Assembly (NCBI RefSeq): GCF_022808595.1
Contig: NZ_JAKUCN010000005.1
Coordinates: 62,001 to 126,000, forward strand
From: Microvirga solisilvae
GTDB taxonomy: Bacteria; Pseudomonadota; Alphaproteobacteria; Rhizobiales; Beijerinckiaceae
DNA length: 64,000 bases
Reading direction: 5' to 3'
Part shown: in pieces, positions 42,427 through 44,669 of the stretch
How positions within the stretch are numbered: the stretch's first letter is position 1
How the letters are laid out: every line of letters begins with the position of its first letter
Translations under genes and position numbers: made by a program
Notes under the pieces: model-generated
Database searches by the model: none
What the model saw: only the letters and a program-made list of their open reading frames with translations
Told to the model about the DNA's origin: nothing

Positions 42427-43446
42427 GTGGGCGTCGTCGTTCCCTTCGAAGAGAAGCATCCCGAGAAGAATGCGAGCATCGAGAAGCTCGTCTCCCTTGT
42501 GGCCGGCGATATGCAGCGGGTCAATGCGATGATCCTGTCGCGCACGGGATCCGAGGTGACGATGATTCCCGAGGTGGCGAACCACCTCATCTCCTCAGGC
42601 GGGAAGCGCCTGCGCCCCATGCTGACGCTGGCCACCGCCGGTCTCTCCGAATATGAGGGCGACGGGCACGTGAAGCTCGCGGCCGCCGTCGAATTCATGC
42701 ACACGGCCACCCTCCTCCACGACGACGTGGTGGACGAGAGCGACATGCGCCGGGGCAAGATCGCCGCCCGCATCAAGTGGGGCAACGAGGCAAGCGTGCT
42801 CGTGGGCGATTTCCTGCTCGGCCAGGCCTTCCGCATGATGGTGGAAGTGGGCTCGATGCGTGCCCTCGACATTCTTTCCGCCGCCGCGACCATCATCGCC
42901 GAGGGCGAGGTGATGCAGCTCGCCGCCGCCAAGAATACCGAGACTACGGAAGACGAATATCTCGCGGTCATTCGCGGCAAGACGGCGGAACTCTTCGCCG
43001 CCGCCTGCGAGGTCGGCCCCGTCATCGCCAACCGCCCGAAGGCCGAGCAGACCGCCTGCCGCTCCTACGGCATGAATCTCGGCATCGCCTTCCAGCTCAT
43101 CGACGACGCGCTCGATTACGGCGGCAAGGCCGCGACGCTGGGCAAGAACGTGGGCGACGATTTCCGCGAAGGAAAGATCACGCTGCCCGTGGTTCTCTCC
43201 TTCCGCCGCGGCACGGACGAGGAGCGCGCCTTCTGGAAGCGCGTGCTCGAACAGGGCGACATCCAGGACGGCGATCTCGAACAGGCGATCGCCATCATGC
43301 GCCGCCACAAGGCGCTGGAGGATACTGTCGAGCGTGCGCGCCATTACGGATCCATGGCCCGCGATGCGCTCGCCCTCTTCCCGTCGAGCCCGATGAAGCA
43401 GGCCCTGCTGGAGACGGTCGATTTCTGCATCGCCCGTGCGTACTGA
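42427..43446 (+). CDS. ispB: Octaprenyl/polyprenyl diphosphate synthase
   Basis: A 339-residue trans-prenyltransferase that builds the ubiquinone side chain from isopentenyl diphosphate. The first aspartate-rich motif is LLHDDVVDESDMRRG (about 89-103) and the second is FQLIDDALDYGG; GGKRLRPMLTLA binds the pyrophosphate. GTG at 42427 (VGVVVPFEEKHP) matches relatives better than an ATG 26 codons upstream. Chain length is not decidable. Its product feeds the quinone pool used by ETF-QO at 48.6 kb, and dxs and ispE in this window supply its substrates. Confidence 0.92.
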   Translation: MGVVVPFEEKHPEKNASIEKLVSLVAGDMQRVNAMILSRTGSEVTMIPEVANHLISSGGKRLRPMLTLATAGLSEYEGDGHVKLAAAVEFMHTATLLHDDVVDESDMRRGKIAARIKWGNEASVLVGDFLLGQAFRMMVEVGSMRALDILSAAATIIAEGEVMQLAAAKNTETTEDEYLAVIRGKTAELFAAACEVGPVIANRPKAEQTACRSYGMNLGIAFQLIDDALDYGGKAATLGKNVGDDFREGKITLPVVLSFRRGTDEERAFWKRVLEQGDIQDGDLEQAIAIMRRHKALEDTVERARHYGSMARDALALFPSSPMKQALLETVDFCIARAY

Positions 43447-43482
43447 GCATAGCTGCACTGTTCTTTTTACAGAACACTTCGG

Positions 43483-43508
43483 TTGACATAAAATCCGGCC
43501 CGTATAAA
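43483..43508 (+). promoter_or_regulatory. Candidate promoter for the metQ leader
   Basis: TTGACA (43483-43488) and TATAAA (43503-43508) stand about 40 bases before the SAM-II aptamer. The 14-base spacing is shorter than the usual 16-18, so the call is tentative. A TGAGGCG/CGCCTCA hairpin lies between this site and the aptamer. Confidence 0.45.
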
Positions 43509-43546
43509 AAGGTCCCTGTCCTGAGGCGCTCAACACCGCCTCAAGG

Positions 43547-43597
43547 CCGCGGTGATTTGAGACGAGCAGCTTGCCCCGCGTGATCAAAGGCTAAAGC
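43547..43597 (+). ncRNA. SAM-II riboswitch aptamer
   Basis: The SAM-II pattern is complete. P1 forms from CGCGG (43548-43552) and CCGCG (43576-43580). The 5' strand is followed by the conserved TGATTTG loop start, and the 3' strand by TGATCAAAGG and GCTAAAGC, the loop that forms the pseudoknot. SAM-II binds S-adenosylmethionine and shuts down methionine genes, mainly in Alphaproteobacteria. The next full-size gene is the methionine-transport-type metQ, which fits. The aptamer is unusually far (about 200 bases) from that gene's start. Confidence 0.9.
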
Positions 43598-43598
43598 G

Positions 43599-43632
43599 CC
43601 ACGAGCGGCCTCCGCCTCGTGGTTCACGAGGA
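43599..43632 (+). promoter_or_regulatory. Putative SAM-II expression platform: alternative hairpins
   Basis: CCACGAG (43599-43605) can pair with CTCGTGG (43616-43622). The same middle strand, CCTCGTG (43615-43621), can instead pair with CACGAGG (43625-43631), which contains the GAGGA ribosome site of the 27-codon ORF at 43643. The two hairpins exclude each other and the first strand begins directly after the aptamer, so SAM binding could decide which forms. The pairings are visible; the switching is inferred. Confidence 0.6.
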
Positions 43633-43642
43633 ACGACGGGCT

Positions 43643-43726
43643 ATGACGCGAACGACTTTCACAATGGCATTCATGCAGAGCCGAGAGCCCTTGCTGGCTG
43701 AAGGCTGTCGTCGCTTCCACGCCTGA
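43643..43726 (+). CDS. 27-codon leader ORF downstream of SAM-II
   Basis: ATG at 43643 to TGA at 43724-43726 encodes 27 residues starting MTRTTFTMAFMQ, with three methionines in the first eleven. GAGGA (43628-43632) stands ten bases before the ATG and is part of the alternative hairpin described for 43599-43632. It could be a leader peptide controlling metQ or simply a chance frame. No homologue is known to me. The position directly under the riboswitch platform is the reason to list it. Confidence 0.4.
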   Translation: MTRTTFTMAFMQSREPLLAEGCRRFHA

Positions 43727-43754
43727 CCTTTCTCTCTCCTAACCAGAACCACAT

Positions 43755-43780
43755 GTCCGGCTTCAAGTTGAAGCCTGGAC
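43755..43780 (+). promoter_or_regulatory. Hairpin in metQ 5' untranslated region
   Basis: GTCCGGCTTCAA and TTGAAGCCTGGAC form an almost perfect stem around a single base, ending about 25 bases before the metQ ATG and its AAGG ribosome site. It could hold the metQ start open or take part in riboswitch control. Confidence 0.5.
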
Positions 43781-43804
43781 GCACTTTGCCCGAAAGGTAC
43801 TCCC

Positions 43805-44608
43805 ATGTCCGTTTTCACCCGTCGCACCATCCTGTCCGCGACCATCGCGATCGCCGCCCTCACTGCGGCGCTGCCTGCTGCCGCTCAGCAGAAGAGCATC
43901 AAGGTCGGCGTCATGTCCGGCGCCGAGGAAGAAGTGGCGCAGGTCGTCAAGAAGGTCGCCGCCACCAAGGGCCTCGACGTTCAGCTCGTGCCCTTCTCCG
44001 ATTATGCCCTCGTGAACGAGGCGCTGGAGCGTAAGGACCTCGACGCGAACGCCTTCCAGCACAAGCCCTATCTCGATGCGCAGATCGCTGCGCGCGGCTA
44101 CAAGATCACTCCCGTCGGCTTCACCTTCGTGCAGCCGATCGGTCTCTACTCGAAGAAGGTGAAGGCCGTTGCCGACCTGCCCAAGGGCGCGAAGGTCGGC
44201 ATCCCGAATGATCCGAGCAATGGCGGCCGCGCGCTCAACCTGCTTGCCGCTCAGGGCATCATCAAGCTGAAGGATGGCAAGGGCCTGTCGCCGAGCCTGC
44301 TCGACATCGCCGAGAACCCGAAGAACGTGCAGTTCTCCGAGCTCGATGCAGCCCAGCTGCCGCGCGCCCTGCCCGATCTGGATGCTGCCGTGATCAACAC
44401 CGACCACGCGATCAACGGCGGTCTCGACATCCGCAGGGACACGATCGCGGTGGAGAAGCGCGAGGGCAATCCTTACGCGAACTTCGTCGCTGCTCGTCAG
44501 GGCGACGACCGCGCGGAGATCAAGACCTTCGTGCAATCCTACCAGTCTCCTGAAGTCGCGAAGTTCCTCGACGAGCGCTTCAAGGGCGCGATCATCCCGG
44601 CCTGGTAA
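43805..44608 (+). CDS. metQ: MetQ/NlpA family ABC transporter substrate-binding protein
   Basis: A 267-residue periplasmic binding protein for D/L-methionine uptake. Residues 1-28 are a signal peptide with an RRT start and AAAQ end; there is no lipobox cysteine, unlike E. coli MetQ. The mature protein begins KSIKVGVMSGAEEEVAQVV and has the NlpA hallmarks VPFSDYALVNEAL, DANAFQHKPYLDA, GYKITPVGFTFVQPIGLYSKKVK and IPNDPSNGGRALNLL. No metN or metI is adjacent, so the permease must be elsewhere. Control by the upstream SAM-II riboswitch supports a methionine role. A strong terminator follows. Confidence 0.93.
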   Translation: MSVFTRRTILSATIAIAALTAALPAAAQQKSIKVGVMSGAEEEVAQVVKKVAATKGLDVQLVPFSDYALVNEALERKDLDANAFQHKPYLDAQIAARGYKITPVGFTFVQPIGLYSKKVKAVADLPKGAKVGIPNDPSNGGRALNLLAAQGIIKLKDGKGLSPSLLDIAENPKNVQFSELDAAQLPRALPDLDAAVINTDHAINGGLDIRRDTIAVEKREGNPYANFVAARQGDDRAEIKTFVQSYQSPEVAKFLDERFKGAIIPAW

Positions 44609-44630
44609 GAACCAAGACCCGCTGAAAGCA

Positions 44631-44669
44631 AAAGCCGGATCATCTCAAGATGGTCCGGCTTTTTTTATT
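44631..44669 (+). terminator. Rho-independent terminator after metQ
   Basis: AAAGCCGGA (44631-44639) pairs with TCCGGCTTT (44654-44662), with an inner CATCT/AGATG stem, followed by a run of T residues. Confidence 0.95.

Follow-up and report, generated by a model that had tools for sequence, protein, structure and literature searches.

The leader upstream of an orphan metQ gene in the window (the whole 64,000-nucleotide stretch of Microvirga solisilvae DNA under analysis; all features below lie on its forward strand) carries a variant SAM-II-type aptamer followed by a short reading frame with a cysteine codon near its stop. We favour, with some reserve, the reading that these parts form a two-input sulfur switch, in which the aptamer would act together with a cysteine-sensing leader peptide. 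Sequence-based support for this reading comprises the family resemblance of the aptamer, covariation of its pseudoknot P2, a further hairpin (P3), the conserved frame, its enrichment in cysteine and a context of sulfur genes. The first-pass annotation had described a SAM-II aptamer ahead of a stand-alone metQ with about 200 bases of further leader; the SAM-II-type aptamer before an orphan metQ was borne out, while the leader peptide lying within those 200 bases had been overlooked. Should this reading hold, the two end products of sulfur assimilation would be sensed by a single RNA leader, SAM via the aptamer and cysteine via the ribosome, ahead of genes for methionine, sulfate, taurine and sulfonate uptake.

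Inspection of the sequence recovered the SAM-II elements that had been named at 43547-43597, namely, the P1 strands CGCGG (43548-43552) and CCGCG (43576-43580), the TGATTTG loop start (43553-43559), and the TGATCAAAGG (43581-43590) and GCTAAAGC (43590-43597) strands. The variant aptamer as a whole was placed at 43547-43599 by a permissive Rfam search, alignment, covariation and joining-strand comparison, and includes P2b (43573-43575 with 43589-43591) and P2a (43566, 43567, 43569 and 43570 with 43596-43599). By the standards of the family, calling this a complete SAM-II pattern went too far, as SAM_alpha (RF00521), matched at 43539-43614 in the permissive search of 43400-43850, scored 20.2 bits where the cutoff is 36; the E-value was 0.025 over the 451-base stretch searched and 0.049 over the genome, a 3.70 Mb assembly. 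The first-pass annotation had itself proposed a covariance score below the family cutoff as evidence against a SAM-II riboswitch, and on score alone the result counts against it. No other Rfam family appeared in the leader at E<=1 in the permissive search, and a search of the whole window at gathering thresholds gave 0 hits. The window and seven further loci (five variants and two copies of a second type) likewise gave 0 hits at the curated cutoff, every variant locus scanned (the window and five others) thus being missed. A plain fold of 43547-43660, made with a program that makes no pseudoknots, was not more stable than shuffles (z +0.75).

Comparison with related copies was more informative than the score. 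P1, the pseudoknot and the downstream P3 hairpin were all visible in an alignment of 37 of 44 distinct copies, from which near-identical Microvirga copies had been omitted. P3 (CCACGAG/CTCGTGG, 43599-43622) had 99.5% of its cells paired in these 37 copies, pair 55-82 being C-G in 29 and U-A in 8, and has C43599 in common with P2a. Some of the copies show concerted changes in the two pairs that involve this nucleotide (P2a G-C 29, A-U 4 and G-U 3; P3 C-G 29 and U-A 8). On 94 distinct variant aptamers from 26 genera, four of the five P1 pairs were invariant, and the outer pair was C-G in 90, G-C in 3 and unpaired in 1. The pseudoknot, which the first-pass annotation had not described, was compared with 500 shuffles of the same 94 aptamers; the base pairs of the search model were P1 and P3 alone, so that P2 pairs were absent from it. 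P2 covaried, which supports the aptamer as real. The third P2b pair, 29-43, formed in 75 of 94 aptamers (shuffled mean 50, maximum 63), as G-C in 60, C-G in 11 and a single A-U, U-A, G-U and U-G. Pairs 24-50 (93/94, shuffled maximum 92), 23-51 (88/94, maximum 87) and 21-52 (83/92, maximum 81) also exceeded their shuffles, and pair 20-53 (84/91) equalled its shuffled maximum of 84, all in a set of related loci, whose counts are therefore interdependent and whose common ancestry the shuffles leave out of account. Individual P2a pairs occurred as either C-G or U-A, or as either G-C or A-U, with the less common version confined to one or two genera each (one genus each for the U-A forms of 24-50 and 21-52). 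In register, P2b and P2a were 92% and 94% paired, against 4-48% when slid. Pairs 18-54, 17-55 and 16-56 did no better than shuffles over the 94 aptamers; an extended P2 (17-55 and 16-56) that had looked convincing by eye in some Microvirga was dropped, since it formed in 19/75 and 26/73 of the wider set, about as often as in shuffles. A chance origin of the element is ruled out by the congeners and the shuffles, given the metQ-linked copies in the former and the covarying P2.

A leader frame behind the aptamer recurred far beyond the window. The frame in the window (43643-43726, 27 codons, MTRTTFTMAFMQSREPLLAEGCRRFHA) is preceded by a putative Shine-Dalgarno region, CACGAGGA (43625-43632), which is complementary to the 3' strand of P3, and has a single cysteine (TGT, 43706-43708), five codons before the last one, ahead of a TGA stop (43724-43726). 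Under a rule that accepted frames of 5-45 codons behind the aptamer with a Shine-Dalgarno site, 93 of 112 distinct variant loci had such a frame and 19 had none; leaders shuffled with dinucleotides kept (100 rounds) gave a mean of 6.35 frames and a maximum of 12, with at most 8 containing cysteine. All 93 frames, which came from 21 of the 26 genera, contained cysteine, and 58 of them at least two. Cysteine made up 10.2% of the residues and 19.5% of the last ten, and the final cysteine lay a median of three codons before the stop; ends such as CCRR, CRR, MCCGCCCC and CCCCCC occurred. Its codons were TGT 140 times and TGC 82 times in the leader frames, compared with 24 and 90 in 76 downstream frames. 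A separate set of 28 loci from other orders, which had not been used in forming the idea, yielded 18 frames, 15 with cysteine and 3 without (10 loci had no frame), while 200 shuffles gave at most 4 frames with cysteine. Furthermore, when the window leader was aligned with 18 relatives (19 Microvirga metQ leaders in total), every gap inside the frame was a multiple of three in all 18. Judging from these features, the short frame is very probably translated, and it is likely that the peptide senses cysteine. A scan of three leader peptides against small-protein families matched nothing for that of the window and that of locus L191; the cysteine run of L241 gave one match, under the cutoff of its family, and was set down to composition.

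The Shine-Dalgarno site behind the aptamer could instead be a distant standby site for metQ, with the short frame incidental. The SAM-II leader of Sinorhizobium meliloti metA offers a precedent for aptamer action at a distance: according to the available text of Scheuer 2022 (PMC9373788), this gene needs the Shine-Dalgarno site behind the aptamer while its translation starts 74 nt downstream of that site, at AUG2, and AUG1, which is in frame with metA and followed by a terminator, is unused in context. The two leaders are alike in having a Shine-Dalgarno site behind the aptamer and a coding start far downstream, but that text describes no cysteine leader for metA, the terms 'uORF' and 'sORF' occurring in it 0 times. 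Neither frame-preserving gaps in 18 of 18 relatives nor cysteine in all 93 detected frames, across 21 genera, would be expected of an incidental frame, and we consider the standby site unlikely.

With the two-input switch as the preferred reading, the next question is what the aptamer binds. The UUU, UUGC and GCUAAA strands were kept in at least 71 of 78 variants at each position, and these strands reportedly contact SAM in the published SAM-II crystal structure. The joining strand was 8-9 nt long in 75 of the 78 variants (3 were not parsed) versus 11-12 nt in all 11 classical copies (L259-L269). Visual inspection of the alignment had separated these copies and L256 from the variants, and they were excluded from the variant counts; higher-scoring classical copies, such as L007-L026, stand outside the classical counts. 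The 11 counted copies differed from the variants in other respects as well, with a terminator by our own scan in 8 of 11 against a terminator-like site in 8 of 112 variant loci, a MetY-type gene in 11 of 11, and a leader frame in 1 of 11. An aptamer that has changed its ligand, for example to a SAM degradation product or a different sulfur metabolite, with the peptide working as in the two-input switch, would suit the shorter joining strand, the different P2a and the score under the RF00521 cutoff, but the near-invariance of the three strands across 78 variants speaks against it, and we give this possibility little credence. Kinship of the aptamer with the SAM-II family is very likely. The covariation of P2, the near-invariant strands and the shorter joining strand are the reasons why, judged by its sequence, the element is a SAM-II-type variant and is not filed under RF00521 as curated. 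It is one of a recurrent subgroup of SAM-II type whose members score under the curated Rfam cutoff. A further subtype (L232, L234, L240, L241, L243, L252 and L258) mostly has GATTTC or GATTTT and an altered 3' part, with little or no P3 in L252 and L258, and could be a separate aptamer lineage.

In the window leader, a probable promoter would lie at 43483-43510 (TTGACA at 43483-43488 and a TATAAA-like -10 element near 43503-43510), and all 19 of the Microvirga metQ leaders compared have TTGAC upstream; a promoter consensus scan favoured another site, 43466-43494. Just before P1, a 5' hairpin (TGAGGCG/CGCCTCA, 43522-43543) is seen in the sequence, and inverted repeats of similar shape and different sequence occur in several congeners. 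Between the frame stop and the metQ Shine-Dalgarno site (43726-43798), the leader stretch had a fold z of -2.71 and contains hairpin P4 (43755-43780), whose six pairs were each kept in 16-17 of 19 rows with a small covariation term; ACCTTTC (43726-43732) can pair there with the metQ Shine-Dalgarno sequence GAAAGGT (43792-43798). The gene itself (43805-44608) encodes a MetQ/NlpA-family binding protein of 267 aa (Pfam NlpA lipoprotein), whose eleven nearest relatives in the named collection were all from Microvirga (85-91% identity, the next being at 70%), and a terminator scan placed an intrinsic terminator behind it at 44630-44663. We call this metQ orphan because a second MetQ, farther away on its contig, is the one accompanied by MetN- and MetI-like frames, partners that were named from resemblance alone; genome-wide aptamer searches found no aptamer near this second MetQ.

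The first-pass annotation had remarked on the unusual length of the leader, and rightly so, with metQ starting at 43805, about 205 nt behind the aptamer, and having its own Shine-Dalgarno site. This distance weighs against an ordinary SAM-II riboswitch that controls translation of metQ across an untranslated spacer. SAM_alpha is indeed the closest Rfam family, but the evidence for a leader peptide also runs counter to such a spacer, and an intrinsic terminator was sought by scan in the leader and not found; we regard an ordinary riboswitch as very unlikely. That the peptide is itself the product, a small cysteine-containing protein rather than a regulator, is the least credible reading of all, for although its Shine-Dalgarno site, start and stop recur, its length ranges from 6 to 39 residues and its sequence drifts with no codon-position bias in the 19 Microvirga metQ leaders (substitutions of 0.42, 0.49 and 0.41 by codon position), a drift that would fit a leader whose encoded product is of no consequence.

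In the two-input switch that we propose, high SAM would fold the aptamer variant into P1 and pseudoknot P2, and the state of the aptamer would control translation of the 27-codon peptide from a Shine-Dalgarno site directly downstream of the aptamer and P3. Cysteine near the peptide stop would make this translation report charged tRNA-Cys as well. Low SAM would thus be needed for the peptide to start and low cysteine for the ribosome to stall, and the stalled ribosome would favour metQ expression, probably via Rho or the structure of the leader RNA. In this scheme we infer that SAM binds the aptamer, that ribosomes translate the frame and stall at cysteine, that control runs in this direction, and that the peptide acts on metQ.

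Individual steps were examined by modelling. The 3' strand of P3 in the window has CACGAGG, which holds the Shine-Dalgarno site, as an alternative pairing partner, and sequestration of the leader Shine-Dalgarno site by this strand is, on the modelled accessibilities, a plausible OFF switch there. For the Microvirga metQ class (n 17), access to the leader Shine-Dalgarno site was 0.37 with P3 formed, 0.24 with the strand free and 0.39 with the strand shuffled. The 77 other loci had no P3-strand effect (0.35 to 0.36, shuffled 0.32), nor did the 94 loci together (0.353, 0.336 and 0.336 for P3 formed, strand free and shuffled), and sequestration was rejected as a general device, the effect being limited to the Microvirga metQ class. 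For the Shine-Dalgarno site of metQ, strong masking by ACCTTTC was predicted in the window; as a general step it was rejected too, access being alike across the modelled ribosome states in 19 leaders (means 0.33-0.44). The stretch behind the leader stop was C-rich and G-poor, with 36% of 94 loci over threshold versus 6.6% of 3160 control windows, a composition that would suit Rho and that we take as a hint only.

Genes behind the variant aptamers pointed to sulfur metabolism in about half of the loci. At least one labelled sulfur gene lay within 1.3 kb in 58 of 112 variant loci, with overlapping counts of MetQ in 23, MetN in 21, sulfate binding proteins in 6, sulfonate and taurine binding proteins in 4 and 4, MetY-like enzymes in 3, MsuE in 3 and MsnO8 in 2; for these labels, one member per cluster was named and the rest followed by sequence clustering. 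The other 54 loci had no labelled sulfur gene in 1.3 kb, and 53 of them carried an uncharacterised small protein instead (E<=0.01). This protein of about 60-90 residues, encoded behind the leader peptide, occurred in 78 of 112 variant loci (L048, L178-L206, L210-L258 and others) and in 0 of 11 classical ones, with the conserved pattern Y-x-I-E ... AGI ... F-H-A ... LEG ... F ... AAERAAR. The members scanned matched no Pfam or NCBIfam family at cutoff. An AlphaFold model (pLDDT 92.8) had three strands and two helices and found no PDB match at E<=0.001. At L243, a frame in the first few hundred bases behind the variant aptamer, which also follows a Cys-rich leader peptide, fits a family 2A encapsulin cargo cysteine desulfurase, and on this resemblance a link between sulfur-storage compartments and the switch is possible.

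We also surveyed how widely the aptamer occurs. The search model matched 115 of 397 genomes of the order, in 37 of 142 genera, at E<=0.001, the weakest of the aligned matches being classical SAM-II; of 134 matches listed for the order, 90 were used. Across the Alphaproteobacteria, 56 of 385 genomes matched at E<=1e-7, and of the 64 matches listed outside the order, the 28 available as loci, which were the best-scoring ones, were used. In a sample of 398 genomes from the phylum, all 15 matching genomes fell within the same class. With SAM_alpha at E<=0.1, 58 of 61 genomes (that of the window included) gave a match, as did 3 of 14 control genomes, and congeners carried 1-5 copies each, nearly all under the Rfam cutoff. 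From this congener search, 60 loci were fetched, of which 42 matched the motif pattern and the other 18 were unused; among the copies fetched, a metQ-linked one in the same arrangement was present in 21 of 36 congeners. The chances are evenly balanced that these loci make up a sulfur-starvation regulon across the Alphaproteobacteria, in which the composite leader would open its genes only when SAM and cysteine are both short and the commonest product would be the uncharacterised small protein.

Among known systems, the closest is SAM-II (RF00521; Corbino 2005, PMC1273637), which, as described in the portion of that paper compared, has the same P1 and P2 pseudoknot, the UUU, UUGC and GCUAAA strands, and an association with methionine and sulfur genes in alpha-proteobacteria. 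Besides its lower score and shorter joining strand, the variant differs in its short, interrupted P2a, its extra P3, its Cys leader peptide, the rarity of a terminator, and its transport and sulfur-scavenging targets. The part of the Leyn 2014 text compared has metY as the core target of SAM_alpha, with metA, metX, metC, hom and metW as further targets, and does not name metQ. The two-input switch, if true, would explain the control of transport genes outside these published targets and define an RNA subgroup that escaped Rfam at its curated cutoff in every variant locus scanned. Another SAM-II variant is SAM-II long loops (RF01726; Weinberg 2010, PMC2864571), but the section consulted lists it for Bacteroidetes and marine samples, and the joining strand here is shorter than the classical one; Rfam searches found no RF01726 match in the window or the seven further loci. 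The Cys-run peptides of Mycobacterium cys operons (Seliverstov 2005, PMC1262725) provide a precedent for cysteine leader peptides, in Actinobacteria: in the part of the paper compared, they share a short frame with cysteine near the stop before sulfur genes and lack a conserved terminator hairpin, and Rho is weakly suggested for them, but no riboswitch is mentioned. Tandem leaders such as Pelagibacter SAM-II/SAM-V (PMC11508383 and PMC9481103, as far as their available text goes) also place two sensors in one leader; both of those are RNA aptamers, whereas in the present leader a translating ribosome would take the second role. The available text of a Caulobacter architecture paper (PMC4117421) holds nothing on this leader type, and among the open-licence papers searched no description of an aptamer combined with a Cys leader peptide was found.

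Other SAM-II-like copies were also observed. The genome of the window has a second one at G000:C22:17066-17143 (L001 1501-1578), which scored 34.2 bits, just under the Rfam cutoff, and sits 44 nt before an SsuA-family binding protein, leaving little room for a leader peptide; copies resembling it recur in the genus. At L120 1012-1138 (Rhodospirillaceae), a SAM-II-like copy of the second type is followed by a hairpin and a T run and precedes MetN-, MetI- and MetQ-like frames, the partners being named by resemblance.
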